NCBI GenBank assembly: GCA_951828535.1
Contig: OX639990.1
Coordinates: 2,343,300-2,407,299, forward strand
Source of the DNA: an uncultured Candidatus Entotheonella sp.
GTDB lineage: Bacteria > Tectomicrobia > Entotheonellia > Entotheonellales > Entotheonellaceae
Direction of reading: 5' to 3'
Length of the DNA stretch: 64,000 nt
Part shown: positions 40,461 through 52,385 of the stretch, one piece after another
Numbering within the stretch: the first letter of the stretch is position 1
How the letters are laid out: each line of letters opens with the position of its first letter
Notes under the pieces: model-generated
The model's database searches: none
The model's input: the letters and a program-made list of their open reading frames with translations, nothing else
What the model was told of the DNA's origin: nothing
Program-made: the position numbers and the translations under genes

Positions 40461-40487
40461 GAGCGCAACTCCCCCTCCCTGACCAGA

Positions 40488-41979
40488 GTCTATCCCCGCG
40501 TGTGCGGGGGAACCTCGTAGGGCAGGTGGGCTCGCATGTCTTTCTTCGGTCTATCCCCGCGTGTGCGGGGGAACCCGCAGACGTGTGGGAAGCCAGCTAC
40601 TTCGGAGAGGTCTATCCCCGCGTGTGCGGGGGAACCTCCAGGCGGCCGACAATGACGTTGAGCAGCACCGGTCTATCCCCGCGTGTGCGGGGGAACCGCG
40701 CATTCGGTTCCAGCGAGCCAGTGGAAAGTGGGTCTATCCCCGCGTGTGCGGGGGAACCGGTGGGTTCGGCTTCTTCCGCATCACCCTGGACGGTCTATCC
40801 CCGCGTGTGCGGGGGAACCCAGAGAGATCAGCGTCGCCACCAGTTCTGACTGGGTCTATCCCCGCGTGTGCGGGGGAACCGCGCTGGCGGCGTCCGAGTT
40901 GCGCTGGATGCCGGGTCTATCCCCGCGTGTGCGGGGGAACCTTCGCGGTCGCAATGGTGGCGCCTTCAATGCGGGGGTCTATCCCCGCGTGTGCGGGGGA
41001 ACCTGGGGCGTCGGCAACGTCATAGATACTCTGAAAGGTCTATCCCCGCGTGTGCGGGGGAACCGCGGGGCGGTCGGGGGGCGCTCAGAGCGGTATCGGT
41101 CTATCCCCGCGTGTGCGGGGGAACCAGCGTGGCTTGCAACTGGCGTCTTACAAGAAAGGGTCTATCCCCGCGTGTGCGGGGGAACCGTGCAGTGGGTCCA
41201 GTACTACGATAACCCGTGGGGTCTATCCCCGCGTGTGCGGGGGAACCGCCGCCGCCGCAGATGGCTGACACGCAGGTCAAGGTCTATCCCCGCGTGTGCG
41301 GGGGAACCCACAGGGCACCCGCCACGCCACCATCTGCCACAGGTCTATCCCCGCGTGTGCGGGGGAACCACGCGCCCGGCGTAGCGAATCGCCCGGCTCA
41401 AGGGTCTATCCCCGCGTGTGCGGGGGAACCTCCGCACGCCCGATAAAACCAGTCGTATCTAAAGGTCTATCCCCGCGTGTGCGGGGGAACCCCTTTTTGA
41501 GATGCAGGCGGATAATGACATACAGGTCTATCCCCGCGTGTGCGGGGGAACCCTCGATAGCGGCGAGCGAGGCGCCGGCGTCCAGGGTCTATCCCCGCGT
41601 GTGCGGGGGAACCGGGAAGTGCCCGAAGTATTTCGCAGGTGTGCGAGGTCTATCCCCGCGTGTGCGGGGGAACCACCTCGGCCACACGCACCGGATCGCC
41701 AGTCATCGGTCTATCCCCGCGTGTGCGGGGGAACCGGTTCTGACCCGCGTGAGGTGTTCCTCAAAATCGGTCTATCCCCGCGTGTGCGGGGGAACCCCTG
41801 AGCCCTGCGCTGGTATTGTTTGTACGTCAGGTCTATCCCCGCGTGTGCGGGGGAACCGGGCCTTGCCTTCCTGGATCAACGTGTCGTAAGGGTCTATCCC
41901 CGCGTGTGCGGGGGAACCGATGTCATGGAACCGGGCGATGTTGGTGACGGGGGTCTATCCCCGCGTGTGCGGGGGAACC
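40488..41979 (-). CRISPR. Type I-E CRISPR array, 25 repeats and 24 spacers
   Basis: Repeats begin every 61 bp (core 27-28 nt, spacers 33 nt) except for one 34-nt spacer before 40977. In the sense orientation (minus strand) the repeat has GTTCCCCCGC/GCGGGGATAGACC features: a CCCCGC/GCGGGG hairpin and the 5'-handle ATAGACC, as in E. coli and S. thermophilus type I-E. All repeats are identical save the first base of the distal one at 40488. Transcription should run from the cas2 side towards recR. Confidence 0.97.
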
Positions 41980-42115
41980 TGCACAGATGTATACCCTGTC
42001 GATGGACGGGGGTAATCGTCATGTGTGCGGGCAATTGTATTGATTCTGCTGTGATTTCCGCCTTGGTGCGGACACCTGGATTGACTGGGAGGAAAGATTT
42101 GGGGTTGTCAAAGAA
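41980..42115 (-). promoter_or_regulatory. CRISPR leader
   Basis: The 136 bp between cas2 and the first repeat in transcription order. It is less GC-rich than its surroundings and holds a minus-strand TTGACA near 42105 and a TACAAT near 42028, which could serve the pre-crRNA promoter. Confidence 0.6.
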
Positions 42116-42421
42116 CTATTCATCGTGGGAGGTGTCAGGGCGGCGTGACAGGATGACGCCGTCGTGGTCTACCAACTCAACTGGCGGTTCTCCAATTACC
42201 CGAACCATTTGTCCGCTGGGCGTGCGCGGGTCTTGCCAGGTCATGACGATGCATCGCCCACCAAGTTCTTCGAACCATTCCGTGATGACTGCCCACACCC
42301 GCTCTCGTACGGAGGTGGAAAGTCTGGGAGACGTGTAGACGCCTGGAGCAATCTCAATCATGCAGGAAGCCAGAAATCCCCGGATACGGGGAGCCACATC
42401 ACGGGTGACTATTATGGTCAT
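42116..42421 (-). CDS. cas2: CRISPR integrase subunit Cas2, type I-E
   Basis: A 101-aa protein of the Cas2e (CasB-type E. coli) class: MTIIVTRDVAPRIRGFLASC, then GVYTSPRLSTSVRERVW and MTWQDPRTPSGQ. It pairs with Cas1 to insert new spacers at the leader end. It overlaps cas1 by 23 bp and is the last cas gene before the leader. Confidence 0.95.
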   Translation of the reverse strand: MTIIVTRDVAPRIRGFLASCMIEIAPGVYTSPRLSTSVRERVWAVITEWFEELGGRCIVMTWQDPRTPSGQMVRVIGEPPVELVDHDGVILSRRPDTSHDE

Positions 42422-43280
42422 CGCGGTCGATCAACTCCGTTATGCGCTCGATCATTTTCGGGATGATTCTTGCGTCTTTGAGACGGCGCCCTGCCAAACG
42501 CCGCACGTGACGTTCAAGGGAAATGTCCCCATTCGCTTGATGCTGCCGCACCGCCTCGAACGCCACGGGGATGGTTATCTCAGTGCGAAACAAGTCCGAA
42601 ATATCCAGGCAGAAGGCCACGGAAGCGTCTTCGTGAATAAACCCAAGCTGCGGCAAGGTGGCCGTTGCCGCCACGGCAATGGTCGCCGCCGCCTCCAAGG
42701 CCGTGGAGGCGTGATTGATGGCTTGGTTGGGGGCGTCGGCCGATTCCGGGTCCTGCCGGTCGTAGCGCCGTCCGTGCCAGTCGATGCCGTATTTGGTTGC
42801 CAGCAGGCTGTAGGAGCGCCGCATGCGGGCCCCTTCGATGCCGCGCATGTTCATGATGTCCTGTTCGGGCAGCACCTCGCCAAGGCGCCATGCGTACATC
42901 CGGCGGGCAATGCGGAGGCGGGCGCGGGGGTCATTCCAGAGTTCTGCCTGGCGGCGCGCTCTTCTCGAATCGCTGGCGCCAAAGGGCTGCGCGCTGTACA
43001 TGCGGACGCCGTCTTCCCCCACGGCGACAAGCCCGGTGCCGTGGCGGGCCATGAGACGGAATACGTCGTGACTCACGGTTGAACCGGGTCCCAGCAGAAT
43101 GAACGAGATGTTCTGGTAGGGGATGGCATAGTCGCCGGCGGCCATGTCCGGGGAGCCCGCGGTGCGAAAATGCAGCGTGCCGTCTTCGACGGTGAGGTTT
43201 CCCCGCGATAGCCACAGCAAGCCGTGGCGGTCTGCATAAGGAATCTTTGCCGCCTCAAGTCCTAACCTGCCTTTGAGCAT
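42399..43280 (-). CDS. cas1: CRISPR integrase Cas1, type I-E
   Basis: From ATG 43280 (AGAGGA upstream) the protein is 293 aa. The metal-binding set is visible: Glu in RGIEGARMRRSY, His in INHASTALEAA and Asp in FIHEDASVAFCLDISDLFR. It catalyses spacer integration with Cas2. A longer frame to 43325 has no family support. Confidence 0.96.
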   Translation of the reverse strand: MLKGRLGLEAAKIPYADRHGLLWLSRGNLTVEDGTLHFRTAGSPDMAAGDYAIPYQNISFILLGPGSTVSHDVFRLMARHGTGLVAVGEDGVRMYSAQPFGASDSRRARRQAELWNDPRARLRIARRMYAWRLGEVLPEQDIMNMRGIEGARMRRSYSLLATKYGIDWHGRRYDRQDPESADAPNQAINHASTALEAAATIAVAATATLPQLGFIHEDASVAFCLDISDLFRTEITIPVAFEAVRQHQANGDISLERHVRRLAGRRLKDARIIPKMIERITELIDRDDHNSHP

Positions 43281-43290
43281 GGTTCCTCTT

Positions 43291-44049
43291 TCAGGCCGGA
43301 CGTAGCAGCAGCATCCCGTAGCCATAGGCGCGGTGCCGTCCGATGCCGTGGGCCAGCAAGTGTGAAAAGGCGTCCGGATTCATGATGGTCAGAACGCCCC
43401 GCATCACGGCGTCCGGTCCCTCGCTGTGGCGGGCGTGCAGCCTGCGCACGGCGCGGGTGCGCTGGAAGGACACCAGCTTTGTCCGGTCGCGATCGAGTTG
43501 GGCGCCGCCGCGTCGGTTGAACTGTTCGGACAGCCAATCGGTATAGACCGCTTCGCGGCTTCGGGGCATTTCTCCTTTTGGGTATCGGATGGCTTCCAGT
43601 TGAAAGGCGTCCCACTCCGTGCCCGGGCGGTGGTCAGCGTTCCTGGAGCGCCGTGCGATAGGGCGAATCCGCGTCTCAAAGCCTAACCGGTTGCCCGCTT
43701 GCCAGACTGAGGGCATTGGCTTGCTGGCGATGCGATCGGCGGACAGGATACGCAGCTGCGATGGGTCGGCATAAGTGCCCGCCGCATTGCGCAGTGCGGT
43801 GGCTTCAGCCTGTGCGTAACCGTACAGAACGCCACGGGATTGGTCCCGCGGCATCATCAGGCGAAAGGGCCGCGGCGCCAGCTCTCCGAAACTCTCCGTC
43901 AGGAGGCAGTGCATGGCGTGGTCGGCGTCTTGCAATCGCTTAATTCCCATCCAACGCCGAAATTCTCTCAGGGCAACCTCGGTGCGTATCATAAAGAGCG
44001 GCTGGGATGCGACCACGGTGCCACGATCTGCAAGGGCAGCATCAGTCAT
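43291..44049 (-). CDS. cas6e: CRISPR RNA endonuclease Cas6e (CasE)
   Basis: A 252-aa protein with a double RRM fold and the terminal Gly-rich loop GIGRHRAYGYGMLLLRP. It cuts pre-crRNA at the repeat hairpin and stays on the 3' handle in Cascade. It overlaps cas5e by ATGA (44046-44049). Confidence 0.93.
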   Translation of the reverse strand: MTDAALADRGTVVASQPLFMIRTEVALREFRRWMGIKRLQDADHAMHCLLTESFGELAPRPFRLMMPRDQSRGVLYGYAQAEATALRNAAGTYADPSQLRILSADRIASKPMPSVWQAGNRLGFETRIRPIARRSRNADHRPGTEWDAFQLEAIRYPKGEMPRSREAVYTDWLSEQFNRRGGAQLDRDRTKLVSFQRTRAVRRLHARHSEGPDAVMRGVLTIMNPDAFSHLLAHGIGRHRAYGYGMLLLRPA

Positions 44050-44816
44050 TGTTCTTCATTCCTTTCCGTTGGCGCCTCGATGGGCTCGCCAAATTGGCTC
44101 CGCTTCGCCGTGCCTTCGCACACCCGTCGCCCGCCCCCGTGCAAACCGGAGCCCCAATTGCGCTGGTCGGTGAGCATGTGGGTACGATTCGGGGCGATGC
44201 CGTCCGCGCCTTCCCCGTTGGACCACAGTAGCTTGACGTCATCTTGACCGCTGCCAGGCTCATCAATGGCTGTCGTCATCAGGGCGGCCAGCGCGGTATC
44301 ACCGGCGCTGAAATCTCTGAACAGGCTTGCGGTGGGCAGGCACGGCTTGCGTCCGATGAACAGAGGGCGCGCGGGTTCTTGCAAGGCGTCAGCCAAGTCA
44401 TCCAGCGTTGGCGCTTCCGTTTCGGGCTGCAGTCGGAGGGCAACGGTTACCCGCATATCTGCGAAGTAGTCGCGGAAGCGCAAGTGGGGCGAATCGTAGG
44501 TGTTAGCTCCCCCGGCCCGACCTTCCGGCCGGCCGTGGGTCGTCCAGCCTTTGTCATTGGCGCCTAACTGGGCGGTCTGAAAGTCGGTCATCCGCACGCC
44601 GCCGGACGGTTCCCGGTCGATGCGAACGGCAAAGATCAGCCGGTCCTGCAACCGCTGGTGCCGTTCTCGTTCCGTGCGTCGCCAGCCCAAGGCGTTGGCG
44701 AACAGCCCGGTGAGCATGGACGCCGCCGGAAACCACCTGATGACACCGAGGTTGTCGATGGTCTCGCCGCCGAAGGCCATCAGCGGGCTTTCGAGGTTCA
44801 GAATGAGGTGCCGCAT
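44046..44816 (-). CDS. cas5e: Cascade subunit Cas5e (CasD)
   Basis: From ATG 44816 the protein is 256 aa, starting MRHLILNLESPLMAFGGETI, the typical Cas5e N-terminus. Later comes RRFCxxR-like GGRRVCEGT. It caps the crRNA 5' handle. The start is two bases past the cas7e stop. Confidence 0.93.
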   Translation of the reverse strand: MRHLILNLESPLMAFGGETIDNLGVIRWFPAASMLTGLFANALGWRRTERERHQRLQDRLIFAVRIDREPSGGVRMTDFQTAQLGANDKGWTTHGRPEGRAGGANTYDSPHLRFRDYFADMRVTVALRLQPETEAPTLDDLADALQEPARPLFIGRKPCLPTASLFRDFSAGDTALAALMTTAIDEPGSGQDDVKLLWSNGEGADGIAPNRTHMLTDQRNWGSGLHGGGRRVCEGTAKRSQFGEPIEAPTERNEEQ

Positions 44817-44818
44817 GA

Positions 44819-45979
44819 TTACTCCGCCTCGGCGTTGCGGACTGCATTCGCCGCCCACTGCGCCAGTTCGTCGAGATTGACCCGTGTGGCGTTGGGTACG
44901 GCATATTCCTCAAGCGACATCACGCGTCTGGATTCCTTGCTGCCGTATGCATTGTCGAGACAGCCCAGGTACGCCGACAAGTTGCGCACGGCGTCGTCGG
45001 TTTGCGCCTTCGACGGCCTGCGAAAGGCGTTGGCCAAGCTGCGGGGTTGACGCGATCCAGCCTCGATGAGCATGAAGTCGGCGTAGGCGTAGGGCGCCGT
45101 GGAACCCAGCTTGGCGCCGGGCGACACGGTAGCAATGAGGTGGACGAGGTTGTACACCACTTGGCTGGCCAGTGACTTGTCGGCGGTTTCCCATTCTTCA
45201 CCCTCAAGATTGGAAACTAGGCCCGGCACGTCCACGACGACATAGCCGTAGAACAACCCGGCGGTTAGCTCCATGTCACCGATGTGGGCGGCGCCGGCGT
45301 CCTCGTCGTCTCGCTGCAAGTCGTCCACGACGGAGAAGTAATCGCTTTCACTCTCTTCCCGGTGCACCGTGAAGGCATGGGCGACATGAATAGCGGCTTC
45401 AATGTTGGCGCCGGGGTCGGAAGTAACCATCCGCCCGAACAGAGCACCCACCAGTCCACCGGGCAAACTGGCCTGTTCACGAAAAGTGCGAAAGTTATTG
45501 CCCTCGCCGCGACGGGCACTGAACAGATTCGTGGCAGCTTCGCCAGCCGCTTTGGCGTCATTCGCGTGTTCAGCGCAGATGACGGCAGCCTTTTCCCGCA
45601 GGTATTCCACTTCGGGTAAGCCGAGCAGCAGGGGCTGCCGCCCGGTTTCCGATGTGCCGCTGCTGCCGTACACACCGATGTTGAAAGCGTCTTGCACCGC
45701 GGTCAGGACTTCGGGGGCAACGCTGCCGGCATTTTCCAATGGCTCAATCACTTCACGCTCAACAACGTTCCGTGACCGTATCGCATCCGGCGCGATGGCG
45801 GAGAGGGCAAATTCATCCTGCGTCGAACGCCAATGCCGCTTGAGGCATTGCGACGAGATACGGGTACGTACCGCGTCTCCAAAAGGCATCCGCTTGGCCA
45901 AGCCGCTGTCATCCCTGTTCAACAATGCCGCCGGGTACGAATGCAGGGTGTGAATTTGCAAAAACCTTGAAACCACCAT
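44819..45979 (-). CDS. cas7e: Cascade backbone subunit Cas7e (CasC/Cse4)
   Basis: A 386-aa protein beginning FLQIHTLHSYPAALLNRDDS, followed by AKRMPFGDAVRTRISSQCLK, the Cas7e hallmark. Six copies coat the guide and impose the every-sixth-base kink on the crRNA. It follows the nuclease-Cas11e gene by 27 bp. Confidence 0.95.
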   Translation of the reverse strand: MVVSRFLQIHTLHSYPAALLNRDDSGLAKRMPFGDAVRTRISSQCLKRHWRSTQDEFALSAIAPDAIRSRNVVEREVIEPLENAGSVAPEVLTAVQDAFNIGVYGSSGTSETGRQPLLLGLPEVEYLREKAAVICAEHANDAKAAGEAATNLFSARRGEGNNFRTFREQASLPGGLVGALFGRMVTSDPGANIEAAIHVAHAFTVHREESESDYFSVVDDLQRDDEDAGAAHIGDMELTAGLFYGYVVVDVPGLVSNLEGEEWETADKSLASQVVYNLVHLIATVSPGAKLGSTAPYAYADFMLIEAGSRQPRSLANAFRRPSKAQTDDAVRNLSAYLGCLDNAYGSKESRRVMSLEEYAVPNATRVNLDELAQWAANAVRNAEAE

Positions 45980-46006
45980 TCTGAAAGCTCCTTTGTTCGC
46001 GGTTCG

Positions 46007-46945
46007 TTACTCGTCGTCGGATTCAGTGGGCTGGGCGCTGCGTCGTTCCGCCCGATAGTATGCGCGGGCTATGGCAATTCGGGCTTTATCGGCCTCCTCT
46101 TCGTTGTAACCCTCATTGAGAATAAACCAAGCCATCTCTCGCCAGTTAAAGGTGCATCTTTCATTTGCCAGCATTCTAAAAAGCCGGCCCAGCAATCGGT
46201 GCAGTGTAGGTCCTCTGGCTGCGAGCAGCGTCGACAGCCGTTCGTCGCTATAAAAAGCCCTGGCCGTTCTGTCACCATTGCCTTCATATAACGTCTGACC
46301 GACTGGGTGCCGGGGGTTATGAGCCAGACCGGCAGTGTGAGCCATCAGGGCCATGCCGTTTGTGATCAGCCCCCACTTGCCGACGTCCAGATTTCGGGGC
46401 ATTCCCTGCTGGCTGATTAGTTTCCAGAATATGGCGCTGTCTGGATTACTGGGGTCCATACGTCGAAGGCTGGCTTTTTCGCCAGTGGTCATTTCCTTTG
46501 CTTCGATGGCTTCAACGATGTTGGTGATAATGTCGCGGAAGTTGGTGGGTATAGGCATGCTTCGTGATTCTGATGCCGGTTCCCATGTGCTGGAGTGGTC
46601 TGCTACACCATTCTGGAGTACATCGTCGATTTCACCCCAGTTTTCTGGACGCCAAGTGTAGGTTGGCAGGTGATGGCTTAATGCTTCCAGCCATTCTTCC
46701 TGTTCCTCGGTCGGTTCAACACCGTACCCGCGCTTCAGTTCCGCAACGATCAGTTGGATGTTGTCAGTCGCTTGGTTTTTGCGAAACATCACTAAGTCTG
46801 GAAAACCTCTACCTCGGACGATATGGATGCTGTCTTTATCTCGGAGGTGAAACGTCCTCCACCCATGACGCTGCGCAGTGTTTATTACTTCGTCGTTGAA
46901 AGACCTTTCCCGTATGGGTTCCGGCTGCGTTTGTGCCTCTGACAT
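46007..46945 (-). CDS. cas11e: Cas11e (Cse2) with N-terminal VRR-NUC-like nuclease domain
   Basis: A 312-aa fusion, against ~160-200 aa for ordinary Cse2. Residues about 14-113 are a PD-(D/E)XK nuclease of the VRR-NUC type: E19, RGRGFPDLVMF with D50, IVAELKRG with E69 and K71, and EQEEWL with Q82, then a YTWRPENWGEI end typical of the family. Residues about 133-305 are Cse2: EKASLRRMDPSNPDSAIFWK, a central helical segment, and RLFRMLANERCTFNWREMAW. AAGGAG precedes the ATG, three bases past the cas8e stop. Cse2 lies along the R-loop in Cascade, so the nuclease would be held near target DNA. All catalytic residues look intact. Confidence 0.85.
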   Translation of the reverse strand: MSEAQTQPEPIRERSFNDEVINTAQRHGWRTFHLRDKDSIHIVRGRGFPDLVMFRKNQATDNIQLIVAELKRGYGVEPTEEQEEWLEALSHHLPTYTWRPENWGEIDDVLQNGVADHSSTWEPASESRSMPIPTNFRDIITNIVEAIEAKEMTTGEKASLRRMDPSNPDSAIFWKLISQQGMPRNLDVGKWGLITNGMALMAHTAGLAHNPRHPVGQTLYEGNGDRTARAFYSDERLSTLLAARGPTLHRLLGRLFRMLANERCTFNWREMAWFILNEGYNEEEADKARIAIARAYYRAERRSAQPTESDDE

Positions 46946-46948
46946 CCT

Positions 46949-48559
46949 TCAATCTCCTTGCTCTAACTCTGGCTGAGAAACCGATTCCCTATTCTTCGGG
47001 AGAAACAGAAATGGCAAGTCGCTGTTGCCGCGTATCCGTCCCTCAAACAGTCCCTCGGCGTTGACACGCGCACGGTAGCGATACATGGCGGGGCAGGGAA
47101 GTGAGTCTTCGGCGTCGTGCAGGACGCCGCGAGCGTGGTCAATCACGCCGCCTTTGTCGTCGTTCAGCAGCCATCGGTTACGGATGCTTTGACGTCCGCT
47201 GTCGTCGTCCGCTTCAAACTCGGTTTGCAAGTCCTCAAAAAACGTACGGTCGACGATGTCGTCCAGCTTGTTCAGCCAAGGGCGAGCCAACGCCCGGTGC
47301 TCGGGGCTAACTTTGTCGGCGTTGCCCCGCGCTGCAAAAACCTGGATGGCGTGGCTCAATATGCGCTGCACGATGCCGACCTGTTCAATGCGCTGCCTCC
47401 CGATATCGCCGAGTTCCTGCGTCCCGCCTGTTCTTCCGATAAGTCGCACCGTTTTGGGCCGTAGCGGAATGATGCGCTCGTGGTAGCCCTCGGTTTTGCC
47501 CTGCCCCCGCACCATGGCGCGGGCCACCAACTGCATCGTGTCTGACGAATGCTGCTCGGCCTGTGTTGGCCGCAGCAGTAGCGGCGGTCCCCATTCGGTA
47601 AGGTACTCGGTGACGCGCTTGTAGGTGAATCCCCCAGCGGCCAGGGTCAAGGGCAGATCATCCCGCTTCCTATTCACGGGAACCCACGGGTCCCCGGTCC
47701 GTCCCTTGAGGTCCTTTCCTTCAATGCGCGCCGCTTTGGAACTGGTCCGGATTCCATACAGATTGCCGTCCGCATGGACGCGCAATCGGATACGACGGCA
47801 CACCTCAATGTAGAAGGGTTCCAGTCGATTGGCTGGTAGAGATTCCGCAGCGGTGCCGTCCCAGGGCATCGTCCACAATAGACCCGCCCCACCGTCGGTC
47901 ATCGGAAATTCCGTCAGCAGTGTCGGGCGCCATTCAAGCAAGGCAGTGATGTCGCGTCGCGCGTGCGCTCCCAGTCGCTCGGAAGGCGCGAGCGTGAACG
48001 CAGGGCGGCTGCCCAAGCCGCCATTCATCCGCGAGATGCCGTAGTTACCAGCCCCGCCGAACCCCTCCATGGTCTGCAGCGTAATCAGCGCGAAAATCCA
48101 GTCGTCAGCGCTGGCTCGGGTCGCCATCACCGATTTCAGATCATGGTTCTTGGAGGTGACCAGCATATCCAGTTCATCCGGCGTTGCGACGGTGCTCTTG
48201 TAGTCCGTTTCGCGTGTTTTGGAACGAGCCGGCGGTTGCATGAAGGCGGATTTGGTAATGTCATCCACCATCAATTGCCAGGGCTCGTCTTGCGGGTAAT
48301 CGAGCGTTAGCCCCCGTATCAGGTCAGCCCACTGTGCCGAATCCGCCGGCAGTTCGCCGACGCCAGCGCGATGTATTGCCATTGCGCCAAGCTGAACCAG
48401 AAAAGCATGCCAAGCGTGGCGCTGGTGGGGCCGCAGCGAGGGAAAGGCTTCAACCTCGTCCTGCATCAGCACGGCGTACACCCCCGGCAAGGAGGAAATT
48501 TCCTGGCTTCCCGTCCTGGTATGCATGCGTATGACGGCTTCCGATATGATATTGAACAT
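46949..48559 (-). CDS. cas8e: Cascade large subunit Cas8e (CasA/Cse1)
   Basis: A 536-aa protein. Segments such as SRPHQRHAWHAFLVQLGAMA-type (LRPHQRHAWHAFLVQL), YKSTVATPDELDMLVTSKNH, GGAGNYGISRMNGGLGSRP and GLLWTMPWDG are typical of Cse1. It reads the PAM and recruits Cas3. It lies between the 56-aa ORF and the nuclease-Cas11e gene. Confidence 0.93.
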   Translation of the reverse strand: MFNIISEAVIRMHTRTGSQEISSLPGVYAVLMQDEVEAFPSLRPHQRHAWHAFLVQLGAMAIHRAGVGELPADSAQWADLIRGLTLDYPQDEPWQLMVDDITKSAFMQPPARSKTRETDYKSTVATPDELDMLVTSKNHDLKSVMATRASADDWIFALITLQTMEGFGGAGNYGISRMNGGLGSRPAFTLAPSERLGAHARRDITALLEWRPTLLTEFPMTDGGAGLLWTMPWDGTAAESLPANRLEPFYIEVCRRIRLRVHADGNLYGIRTSSKAARIEGKDLKGRTGDPWVPVNRKRDDLPLTLAAGGFTYKRVTEYLTEWGPPLLLRPTQAEQHSSDTMQLVARAMVRGQGKTEGYHERIIPLRPKTVRLIGRTGGTQELGDIGRQRIEQVGIVQRILSHAIQVFAARGNADKVSPEHRALARPWLNKLDDIVDRTFFEDLQTEFEADDDSGRQSIRNRWLLNDDKGGVIDHARGVLHDAEDSLPCPAMYRYRARVNAEGLFEGRIRGNSDLPFLFLPKNRESVSQPELEQGD

Positions 48560-48612: not shown

Positions 48613-48783
48613 CTACGCTTGGCGGCCTTCGGACATCAGTGAAATTGCTGCCCGGAGTGTGTCCCGCTGATACCGGAGAGCGTCATACTCAGCTTCCGCC
48701 GGATTGAGTTTCTTCTCGATGGCTGCCAGTTTGATTTTAAGGGCACTCAATATATCAGCGGGGGCGTCGTTCTGGGTTTTCAT
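48613..48783 (-). CDS. 56-aa helical protein heading the Cascade operon
   Basis: ATG 48783 with AGGAGG five bases upstream, stop at 48613, then 53 bp to cas8e. The product starts MKTQNDAPADILSALKIKL, continues AAIEKKLNPAEAEYDALRYQ and is almost wholly helical and charged, like a short coiled coil. I recognise no family. The strong ribosome binding site and its place between the Cascade promoter and cas8e argue that it is translated. It could be an anti-silencing leader peptide, a Cascade accessory, or a small toxin governed by the guide RNA upstream; it lacks the tandem rare Arg codons of known CreT toxins. Confidence 0.6.
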   Translation of the reverse strand: MKTQNDAPADILSALKIKLAAIEKKLNPAEAEYDALRYQRDTLRAAISLMSEGRQA

Positions 48784-48823
48784 TTGGTCCTCCTACTTTG
48801 ATTTGCCGTTATCGCAGTTGTTT

Positions 48824-48840
48824 ATTGTAGCTCGTAGATT
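48824..48840 (-). promoter_or_regulatory. Protospacer-like target in the Cascade promoter
   Basis: Read on the minus strand: AA (48840-48839, PAM), T, then CTACGAGCTACAAT. Against the guide of the degenerate unit at 48882-48970, counted from its second base, positions 1-5, 7-11, 13 and 14 match; only 6 and 12 differ. The site begins at the expected transcription start and includes a TACAAT element. Confidence 0.7.
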
Positions 48841-48843
48841 GTG

Positions 48844-48874
48844 ATAACATGAAGCAAACTTGTCTGGATGTCAA
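48844..48874 (-). promoter_or_regulatory. Probable promoter of the Cascade operon
   Basis: TTGACA (48874-48869) and TGTTAT (48849-48844) with a 19-bp spacer, or CATGTT (48851-48846) with 17 bp. Transcription would start near 48837, inside the guide-RNA target. Confidence 0.5.
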
Positions 48875-48881
48875 GTTCCAA

Positions 48882-48970
48882 GGTGCCACACAGTTCGTGT
48901 GGATAGACCACTACGCGCTACCATGCTTCAAAGTTGGTCACGAATTCCCCCGCAAACGCGGGGACAGGTT
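48882..48970 (+). ncRNA. Degenerate two-repeat CRISPR unit: putative cas-regulating guide RNA
   Basis: The first degenerate repeat (48882-48909) keeps the last nine bases GGATAGACC, including the full 5' handle, and rebuilds the hairpin with changed bases (CCACAC/GTGTGG instead of CCCCGC/GCGGGG). The second (48943-48970) matches 21 of 28 bases and keeps the original stem. They are 61 bp apart, the exact period of the main array, enclosing a 33-nt guide. The unit lies on the + strand, divergent from Cascade. This is the layout of CreA/CreR RNAs: a crRNA-like molecule directing Cascade to a nearby promoter for repression without cleavage. Confidence 0.78.
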
Positions 48971-49133: not shown

Positions 49134-49367
49134 ATGCAATTTCAGTATGCAGGAATTATTACTGTCGAGCCTGGCAAGCGTGGGGGAAAGCCCTGCATTC
49201 GCGGGCTGCGAATCACCGTCTACGACGTTCTGGAATATTTGGCTTCCGGCATGACCGAAGCGGAAATTCTTGCGGATTTTCCAGACCTGACCTGTGAAGA
49301 CGTCAGGGCGTGTCTGGCATTCGCCGCTGACAGGGAACGCCGCATGGTGTCCGTTCCGCCCGCATGA
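49134..49367 (+). CDS. DUF433 antitoxin-like protein
   Basis: A 77-aa protein from ATG 49134. The DUF433 pattern is clear: GGKPCIRGLRITVYDVLEYL, SGMTEAEILADFPDLT. This family has an HTH-like fold and acts as the antitoxin partner of DUF5615 proteins. Its stop overlaps the next start (ATGA at 49364-49367). The 160 bp before it hold a weak GC stem followed by TTTT (about 49070-49095), possibly the terminator of the guide RNA. Confidence 0.88.
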   Translation: MQFQYAGIITVEPGKRGGKPCIRGLRITVYDVLEYLASGMTEAEILADFPDLTCEDVRACLAFAADRERRMVSVPPA

Positions 49368-49696
49368 AACTGCTTTTTGATCAAAATCTATCTCCGAACC
49401 TTACGGAGGTATTGAGGGACCTCTTCCCTGGCTCGCTTCATGTAAGGGATGTGGGTCTTGATGCCGCCACCGATGCTGCAGTATGGGCTTATGCCAAAGA
49501 ACAAGCATTCGTAGTCGTCTCGAAGGACGCCGATTTTCGGCATCTTGGCTTCACTTATGGTCCGCCGCCCAAAATTGTCTGGATTCAACGCGGCAATTGC
49601 ACAACAAGGGAAATTGGGGCGCTTCTTCGCGAACGAAGCGATGAGGTGTTCGCCTTTTATGAGAATGAGAGCGAGGTTGTTCTGGCCTTGCGTTGA
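49364..49696 (+). CDS. DUF5615 (PIN-like) toxin
   Basis: A 110-aa PIN-like protein: MKLLFDQNLSPNL with the first acidic site, HVRDVGLDAATDAAVWAYA, and VVSKDADFRHL with the second. It is probably a ribonuclease toxin paired with the DUF433 protein. The pair faces cas3 and separates it from Cascade; toxin-antitoxin genes inside cas loci may make loss of the locus costly. Confidence 0.87.
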   Translation: MKLLFDQNLSPNLTEVLRDLFPGSLHVRDVGLDAATDAAVWAYAKEQAFVVVSKDADFRHLGFTYGPPPKIVWIQRGNCTTREIGALLRERSDEVFAFYENESEVVLALR

Positions 49697-49742: not shown

Positions 49743-52385
49743 CTAAGCCCTGCGTAGTCCTTTCCGGTCATAGCGGAATTTCCGATCCCCCACGTTGAAA
49801 TCGAACCCGCCTTCGCTTGCCGTTGTTTCCACGGTTTCCGGCACGTCCTGCCCTTTCAGCCAGTCGGCCGACACCGCCAGCTTGTCGATCGAGCGGGACG
49901 GATCAAACGGGCTGGCAGGCATCGGGTCGAAGGCAATGTCGATGCGGTCGTCGCCCAAGCGAGTGCGGATTCGCTCCTCGGCGGAGCCGAATACGACGTC
50001 CCGGTTGTCCTCGAAAAACGATCTGTCGAGGCGCACCAGGTTGCTGCGGGCGGTTTGTTTATCGCCATGGTAGCCGCCCTCGGTGCTGTTGGCGTGGGCT
50101 CGCCATGCCTCGCCCATTTCCTCGGTGATGCATTCCAGGACGTCGGAGTGGGTGGCGCGTTCGACCAGTTCGCGGTTCATCGCCGGGATATGCCATTCCG
50201 GGTGTTCGTCAATCAGCCGCCGGGTTGCCTCAAGGACCTGCAAACTCCCGTATACGTGGCCGCGGGGACCCAGGCCATTGGCGTTCTGCCCGCTTGTCAG
50301 CAACGGCGACAGGTCATCACCGGGCGTCAGCACGATGCAAGCCGGCGTTTCGTAGCCATCGGGCCGGTCATCCCGCCGGTGGCGGTGCAGGCGACCGACA
50401 CGTTGCAGCAGCACATCCACCGGACAGAGATCGGTTATCAGCAGGTCGGCGTCGATATCCAGCGATTGCTCCAGCGTTTGCGTGCCCACCACAATGCGAC
50501 CACCGGCTCGGCGGCTTTTGCCCAACAATGCCTCCACCGCGCCGTCTAGCAGCCGACGGTCACCGGCGCCGAACCGGCCATGATGCAGCGTCGTGATGCC
50601 ATTGACGCCGAACAAAAGCCCGGCGCCCTCTTTGCCGGCTAACTCCTCCAACGCCTGCTGAGTCTGAACGGCGTAGCCCACCGTATTGCGAACCACCAGT
50701 ACCTTTGCGCCGGCGCGGGCTGCTTGAAGGGCACGTTGGGCGGTGTCGGCGAAGTCCGACATCATGGACCGCGGCGTAATGGCAACGGTCTTTGCATAAC
50801 CGTTTTCGCCGACAGCCGTGATGCCCTTCGGCGTGCTGACCGCGGGATAGGGTGTGTTGTCGATGGCTTTGGTCAGCGGCGGCGGATTGTTCTGCCCCAG
50901 CCAGCGGCAACGCGCAACGGAGCCCAGCGTAGCTGACATGAGCATCGCGTAACCACCCGCCTCGACGTGGGCACATAGCAGGTGTTCGAGGATGGTGCTC
51001 ATGTAGGTGTCCGAAGCGTGTACTTCGTCGACGACCAGAAGATTGCGCGCCAGACACGCGGCGCGCATATGGGCGTGCTTGACCTGCAGGACGGCCATCA
51101 TGGCTTGATCCACGGTGCCCACGGCAATCTGTGCCGCCAGGTAGCGCTTGGCGCTTGCGGCTGCCCAGCGGCGTTTTTCGGTGCGAACGTCGGGATGGTC
51201 GTCCCACCATACCTCATAGTCCGGGAGGCGCTTGCCGGTTGCGTCTCCGGCTCTCACATAGCCGGGAACGGCCAGTACGGGTTCGAGACCCGTCTCTGGG
51301 GGCAGCAGGTTTCGCATGAACGCCGTTACCCGCCCATGAATCTGGCTGGCTGCCGCGCGGGTGGGCAGCGCGAAATACAATCCGTCCACCAGCCCCTTTT
51401 CGTACAGATGGGCGAATCGCAGCAACGCGGCTTCGGTTTTGCCCGAACCGGTTTCCGATTCGACAATGACCAATTGCTCCTCCCATGGAACGGATGTCAC
51501 CACCTGTTGGATAGCGTTTTCCGTTGCGTTTGGAAGGCCGAACAACTGGCCAAAGACAGGCAGAGCGGGATACGAGAGAAACGTCTTCCGTTGATCTTCC
51601 AGATTCAACCCAATTCCCGATACGGCACGACGGGCGTTCGCGCGCGCGGTCAGCATATAGCCGCCGTCCGGTTCGGGGCAGAAGGGGAAACAGCTTTCAT
51701 CTGAGCCTATCCAGTCAGCCAGCATGCACAGACCTGTGAACATGTGCTGGAAGGCGACGGCTGAGGGCAGCGGTGGCGCGCCGGGCGACCAAGCCTCGGG
51801 GAACCACTCGCGAACCAATTGGCCGATGTGCGTCACCTGCCGCTGCGGATTCAGCGCGCCGTAGGAATGCCAGATTCCGGAATTGCGCTGACGTGTGCTG
51901 TTGAGGTCCAGAGGCGCGCCGTGGTGTGACAACGCCGCGATGAACAATCCGCATACGGTGCGTCCATCCTCGGCATCCCATGTCAAAAGGTTATCCCAAC
52001 CCAAAGCGTCAAAGAACCAGGCAGCCGTTTCACGGTCGTCATAGTTGAGGACAGGCGTCAGGTCCGCTATGTGGCCGGAGCGGCGCGGCAGCTTCGTGTC
52101 GCCTGTGGGCGGGTCTTCAGGTTGCCATATCCGCGCCTGAAATCCGACGTTGACCTTGCCGATGTCATGCAGCGCGGCGAAGACGCAGAGCCGGGCGATG
52201 GTTGGCGCATCCAGGTCGTCGAGCCCGCCGCTACGGGCTAGGCGCCGGCGGATGGTCGGCTGGGCCAGCAGCGCTTCGAGACAGGCGCCGACGTCCGCCA
52301 TGTGATGCTCCAGCAGGTGGATGCGTTGCGGGTTTTCGCGGTCCGATTTTGCCCAGAAATACCGGGTGTAAGCTGGGGCTGTCAT
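49743..52385 (-). CDS. cas3: CRISPR helicase-nuclease Cas3 (HD first, type I-E)
   Basis: An 880-aa protein. The HD nuclease domain is intact: LLEHHMADVG, ALHDIGKVNVGFQ and ALSHHGAP. The helicase follows with Walker A ESETGSGKTEA, VVDEVHASD (DEVH), MLMSATLGS and QRVGRLHRHR (motif VI). It unwinds and degrades DNA once Cascade has bound. The gene is away from the Cascade operon and begins only 12 bp after the polX stop, so it may be expressed from the repair operon. Confidence 0.95.
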   Translation of the reverse strand: MTAPAYTRYFWAKSDRENPQRIHLLEHHMADVGACLEALLAQPTIRRRLARSGGLDDLDAPTIARLCVFAALHDIGKVNVGFQARIWQPEDPPTGDTKLPRRSGHIADLTPVLNYDDRETAAWFFDALGWDNLLTWDAEDGRTVCGLFIAALSHHGAPLDLNSTRQRNSGIWHSYGALNPQRQVTHIGQLVREWFPEAWSPGAPPLPSAVAFQHMFTGLCMLADWIGSDESCFPFCPEPDGGYMLTARANARRAVSGIGLNLEDQRKTFLSYPALPVFGQLFGLPNATENAIQQVVTSVPWEEQLVIVESETGSGKTEAALLRFAHLYEKGLVDGLYFALPTRAAASQIHGRVTAFMRNLLPPETGLEPVLAVPGYVRAGDATGKRLPDYEVWWDDHPDVRTEKRRWAAASAKRYLAAQIAVGTVDQAMMAVLQVKHAHMRAACLARNLLVVDEVHASDTYMSTILEHLLCAHVEAGGYAMLMSATLGSVARCRWLGQNNPPPLTKAIDNTPYPAVSTPKGITAVGENGYAKTVAITPRSMMSDFADTAQRALQAARAGAKVLVVRNTVGYAVQTQQALEELAGKEGAGLLFGVNGITTLHHGRFGAGDRRLLDGAVEALLGKSRRAGGRIVVGTQTLEQSLDIDADLLITDLCPVDVLLQRVGRLHRHRRDDRPDGYETPACIVLTPGDDLSPLLTSGQNANGLGPRGHVYGSLQVLEATRRLIDEHPEWHIPAMNRELVERATHSDVLECITEEMGEAWRAHANSTEGGYHGDKQTARSNLVRLDRSFFEDNRDVVFGSAEERIRTRLGDDRIDIAFDPMPASPFDPSRSIDKLAVSADWLKGQDVPETVETTASEGGFDFNVGDRKFRYDRKGLRRA

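Follow-up and report, generated by a model that had tools for sequence, protein, structure and literature searches.

What is the role of a tiny CRISPR-like unit, made of two decayed repeats and one guide, lodged between the cas3 and cas8e genes of a complete type I-E locus? In the window, the whole 64,000-nt stretch of Candidatus Entotheonella DNA that was analysed, the locus resides on the minus strand, and extends from the array through the cas genes to cas3. The canonical array (40486..42000) includes 24 exact 28-nt repeats, GGTTCCCCCGCACACGCGGGGATAGACC, plus a terminal variant, and its spacers are nearly all 33 nt long. None of the spacers has A as first base, hinting that the PAM may be AA followed by a non-A base. 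On the same strand are found cse2, cas7e, cas5e, cas6e, cas1e and a cas2e-like ORF assigned by position (42110..46945), and a divergent Cas8e (46949..48559), which scores 64.9 bits against TIGR02547, where the cut-off is 70.05, and matches no Pfam family. A small ORF of 56 aa (48613..48783, minus strand), which has a partial relative in the Binatia locus L075, is probably the first gene of the Cascade operon. The cas3 gene (49743..52385) is 1.18 kb away from cas8e, and the gap hosts, on the plus strand, the mini-CRISPR and a DUF433-DUF5615 gene pair.

The unit is delimited by two degenerate I-E repeats, at 48882..48909 (psiR1) and 48943..48970 (psiR2) on the plus strand, set exactly 61 bp apart, as reported in a first-pass annotation of this DNA. 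Both rank among the three best matches to the array repeat found outside the array in the 64-kb window. psiR1 is more diverged, and matches the array repeat at 18 of 28 positions against the 21 of psiR2; relatives are alike in this respect. The 5' handle ATAGACC of psiR1 is entire (7/7), as had been claimed. The annotation had also proposed that the psiR1 hairpin was rebuilt by paired base changes. A 6-bp stem (CCACAC/GTGTGG) with a 5-nt loop is indeed formed by bases changed relative to the array repeat, but it is displaced by one base on the 5' side. In psiR2 the hairpin CCCCGC/GCGGGG is intact, and the 3' handle has decayed. Since psiR1 provides the 5' handle and psiR2 only the 3' hairpin, the two have all that a single crRNA-like unit needs. 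The source genome contains a second type I-E system, which is canonical and has a different repeat, with the handle ATGAACC; the handle preserved in psiR1 therefore fits the Cascade encoded in the window.

The 33-nt guide ACTACGCGCTACCATGCTTCAAAGTTGGTCACG (48910..48942, plus strand) lies between the repeats. Its first base, A, is unpaired opposite a T in the DNA, and numbering starts after it. Guide positions 1-14 align to 48837..48824 on the minus strand, where 12 of 14 match: positions 1-5, 7-11 and 13-14 pair, and the mismatches fall at the flipped-out positions 6 and 12. The match stops at position 14 of a protospacer expected to cover 32 nt (48806-48837, minus strand), and 13 of the 17 pairable positions within 1-20 are paired. 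An AA PAM adjoins the target (48839..48840, minus strand). The promoter of the Cascade operon was called by a relaxed sigma-70 scan, not by a strict one, at 48844..48874 (minus strand), with TTGACA (48869-48874) as predicted -35, and either CATGTT (48846-48851, spacer 17) or TGTTAT (48844-48849, spacer 19) as predicted -10. Transcription is predicted to start near 48838, and the target would therefore begin at about +1, on the predicted core promoter. Register, numbering, PAM and promoter location all agree with the first-pass annotation. The seed pattern AANCTACGNGCTACNAT has one mismatch-free site in the 3.6-Mb genome, which is the target at the Cascade promoter. When guides were shuffled, the best score beside an AA PAM, calculated over the 12 non-flipped positions, was 10 in 4 of 1160 trials, and in none was it 11 or 12.

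Autorepression via partial complementarity to the promoter has been described for CreRs of types I-B, I-E and V-A, as summarized in PMC13131331 (citing Liu et al. 2023, Cell Host Microbe), PMC12737573 and PMC12948488. We assign the unit in the window, with a probability of roughly 0.93, to these cas-regulating crRNA-like RNAs, and on sequence grounds consider it a well-supported member of the I-E CreRs. As in the CreRs outlined in those articles, a mini-CRISPR with degenerate repeats is linked to the cas operon, the guide has limited complementarity to the cas promoter next to a PAM, and a dedicated toxin target is missing; it differs from them in residing in a divergent Cas8e subfamily, between cas3 and cas8e and beside DUF433-DUF5615. 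The earlier statement that CreA and CreR RNAs are established for other type I systems needs widening. Since PMC13131331 refers to CreRs of type I-E as well, the find is less novel than had been implied.

According to this reading, the unit would be transcribed on the plus strand, and Cas6e would cut at the base of both hairpins. The mature RNA, consisting of 5' handle, guide and 3' hairpin, would be loaded by the Cascade of the locus, which would then sit on the AA-PAM site, from about +1 to +32 of its own operon, via ~13 base pairs, plausibly enough to block RNA polymerase and too few to trigger Cas3. The expression of cas genes would be kept low, and, by extrapolation from published CreRs, may climb once ordinary crRNAs or anti-CRISPR proteins divert Cascade. 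The unit would very probably be a built-in RNA thermostat of CRISPR immunity. For E. coli Cascade, 5 bp can suffice for binding, and interference requires >18 bp (PMC5904413); measured on the threshold of E. coli, rather than on that of this Cascade, the pairing is too short for interference. In E. coli, transcription was unaltered by Cascade bound via short seeds (PMC5904413), and ~13 pairs need therefore not repress. The repeated occurrence of this design in different phyla, however, speaks for an effect of short-seed binding on transcription here.

Genome scans with a single Cas8e sequence gave no match, and scans with 60 Cas8e relatives retrieved only the window itself; by an alignment of Cas8e built from plasmid hits, 80 loci were recovered. 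Cas8e proteins 56-72% identical were found in 23 of the 80, which belong to Candidatus Binatia, Chloroflexota and one Nitrospira. For units located through their repeats alone, the best guide match is the own promoter, with an AA PAM and the same 6/12 mask. In a handle-anchored scan of 86 loci, 22 of 84 handle sites had a target matching at 11 or more of the 12 non-flipped positions beside AA, and eight control handle sets (reversed, complemented, six shuffled) had none in the same loci; other mismatch registers yielded 3-4 matches, other PAM dinucleotides 0-3 each. By adding to the 22 the units with 10 matches, another PAM or a handle variant, plus a second-repeat hairpin, the scripted count is 29 of the 86 loci of this Cas8e subfamily. 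Three further units were recognized, one (L111) by a one-mismatch handle search, two (L112, L131) by eye from gap sequences. Although the guides differ between loci, every one fits the cas promoter of its own locus, leaves 6 and 12 mismatched, and nearly always has AA as PAM. The loci are scattered among Binatota, Chloroflexota, Pseudomonadota, Acidobacteriota and Gemmatimonadota, which would extend RNA-guided autorepression of cas genes to a divergent and widely distributed I-E Cas8e subfamily. In repeat 1, 5-6 stem pairs are kept in 24 of 29 units (mean 5.83, against 4.63 with the arms shuffled), and the stem is weak or absent in L075 and L078. A -35 of the type TTGAC(A/T/G) is found within -65..+55 of the seed in 20 of 29 units (null, 16%). 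Eight of the 29 guides are only 21-22 nt long, plausibly two Cas7 segments or so below the normal length. Two canonical I-E loci (L057 and L060) likewise carry a CreR-like unit. The second I-E locus of the source genome is also canonical (G000:C1:3126619-3128082, with the array in L049 and the repeat handle ATGAACCG), and no CreR was detected there in the stretch searched.

Covariation of guide and target in relatives had been set beforehand as a test by the first-pass annotation, and the outcome is positive. When the window is compared with its orthologues in Binatia (L075 and L076), 8 of the twelve paired positions vary, and the target changes identically in all 8; positions 6 and 12 do not covary. 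The pair L086/L093 adds one more compensatory change at position 7, where guide and target differ alike. The mean score of guides on their own targets is 11.3/12, a match at the 12 non-flipped positions which is partly high by construction because these served for selection, against 4.2 for crossed pairs. Guide-target coevolution is evidence that the units are used in nature. At positions outside the selection, 66-79% of the 29 units match at 15-17, and 48-79% when 15-17 and 19-20 are taken together; matches fall to 24% at position 18, and are about 25% past position 20. Within 1-20, where 17 positions can pair, the 29 guides reach 16 matches at most and 14.7 on average. Mismatches are tolerated at positions 3, 9 and 15 (21/87, against 23/348 elsewhere; p ~1e-5). 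Besides 6, 12 and 18, mismatches thus gather at the centre of each 5-bp segment; no usable account of a three-nucleotide periodicity in Cascade turned up in a literature search. Natural pairs are an evolutionary record of Cascade binding without cutting, in which positions 6, 12 and 18 are free, 16 pairs in 1-20 are the ceiling and mid-segment mismatches are tolerated, and can be directly compared with biophysical models of Cascade.

The distribution of the units is uneven, and part of the relatives lack them. Among the 77 loci in which the spacing between cas3 and cas8e could be measured, a unit was found in 28 of the 32 with gaps of at least 240 bp (30 of 32 with two by eye), and in none of the 45 with shorter gaps. 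On the Cas8e tree, about 18-22 changes are required to account for presence and absence, and near sisters differ (L074/L076, L095/L083). From the gap-size rule and these many changes, promoter and CreR would seem to come and go together, as one cassette. Units are found in two arrangements, either divergent to the Cascade operon, as in the window, or co-directional, ~65-190 bp before cas8e and with the target further upstream.

Large cas3-cas8e gaps often hold varied type II toxin-antitoxin genes, several directly 3' of the CreR and on its strand. In the window, the toxin-antitoxin-like DUF433-DUF5615 (PIN-like) pair (49134..49696, plus strand) is so placed, a neighbour not mentioned in the first-pass annotation, and the same pair is found in L076 in the like position, DUF433 alone in L075, BrnT in L078, a HicB-family protein in L086, RHH with or without ParE in L093 and L094. 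Such neighbours raise the alternative that the guide is a CreA/CrePA-type antitoxin, which represses the pair rather than the cas genes and serves addiction or abortive infection; the target also overlaps the likely position of the plus-strand promoter of the unit. The sole matching site, in contrast, is the cas promoter, and the pattern search of the 3.6-Mb genome found no match in the upstream region of the pair. The majority of CreR loci host no toxin pair. Between the unit and the pair, the intergenic DNA shows little conservation, and itself includes terminator-like and promoter-like sites. This alternative is hence improbable. Co-repression is conceivable, since the CreR promoter of divergent loci is expected in a region which the target overlaps. 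A further picture, also unlikely, is that of a portable promoter and CreR cassette which is inserted or lost between cas3 and cas8e, splits the operon, and in several lineages brings a type II toxin-antitoxin pair under the same Cascade-repressed divergent promoter, as a hybrid of CreR and CrePA. If so, the loss or inhibition of Cascade would induce both cas genes and toxin pair. In Salinibacter (L068) the gap hosts a DUF6364-PIN pair, and no CreR was detected.

Two repeats around a 33-nt spacer look like a mini-array, and units of this kind abut real arrays in L085 and L152, as would be expected of a decaying remnant of ordinary CRISPR with a spacer acquired from the own cas promoter, in which case self-targeting would be accidental and nothing would be regulated. 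An acquired spacer, however, would match over the full length, whereas matching is over by position 20 in the family; mismatches recur at 6, 12 and 18 in ~29 loci with different guides, guide and target covary, and handle and stem persist despite sequence decay, all of which make a remnant very improbable. That the repeats are relics, and the conserved element a protein-binding operator or a terminator-like structure, is scarcely credible. Hairpins do form in both repeats, but guide-target covariation, AA PAM and 6/12 register would be left unexplained, and an Rfam search matched no family; a search of PDB was likewise without a match.

The unit shares several traits with CreA of CreTA. In type I-B CreA, positions 6 and 12 are dispensable, pairing involves 1-5 and 7-11, and psiR1 has decayed more than psiR2 (PMC8501985, PMC9458426); both the two degenerate repeats and the pairing scheme recur here. 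CreA, however, represses the promoter of an RNA toxin, whereas the only exact genomic target of the unit is the cas promoter, and pairing in the Cas8e subfamily reaches about position 20. CrePA, known to us through the accounts in PMC12737573 and PMC13131331 of Shu et al. 2025, involves guided repression by Cascade near protein toxin genes; in the window, no match of the guide was found at the promoter of the toxin pair, which shares the strand of the unit and is located 3' of it. The scaRNA of Francisella novicida Cas9, as sketched in PMC9458426, is similarly a degenerate repeat RNA that turns a CRISPR effector into a repressor of host genes, but belongs to type II and targets a lipoprotein operon. 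Relative to known I-E CreRs as described in reviews, and as far as checked, the subfamily survey, the 16-pair ceiling, the cassette pattern and the tolerance at 3, 9 and 15 are additional. New at the level of the whole family are the cassette-like gain and loss, the 21-22-nt guides and the toxin-antitoxin cargo.

The surveyed loci exhibit a few further peculiarities. Between cas3 and cas8e, a longer array has a CreR-like unit as its first member in L085 (offsets -482 to -1219, counted from the start of cas8e) and as its last in L152; this suggests that CreRs may derive from arrays, or arrays grow out of CreRs. In five Chloroflexota loci (L078, L081, L086, L093, L094) a Cys-rich, weakly B-box-like small ORF (~56-92 aa), which matches no Pfam family at cut-off, is interposed between target and cas8e, and appears to be the opening gene of the cas operon. 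In Sphingomonas parapaucimobilis (L070), the locus with this Cas8e comes immediately after a DISARM operon, which stands in the place of cas3.
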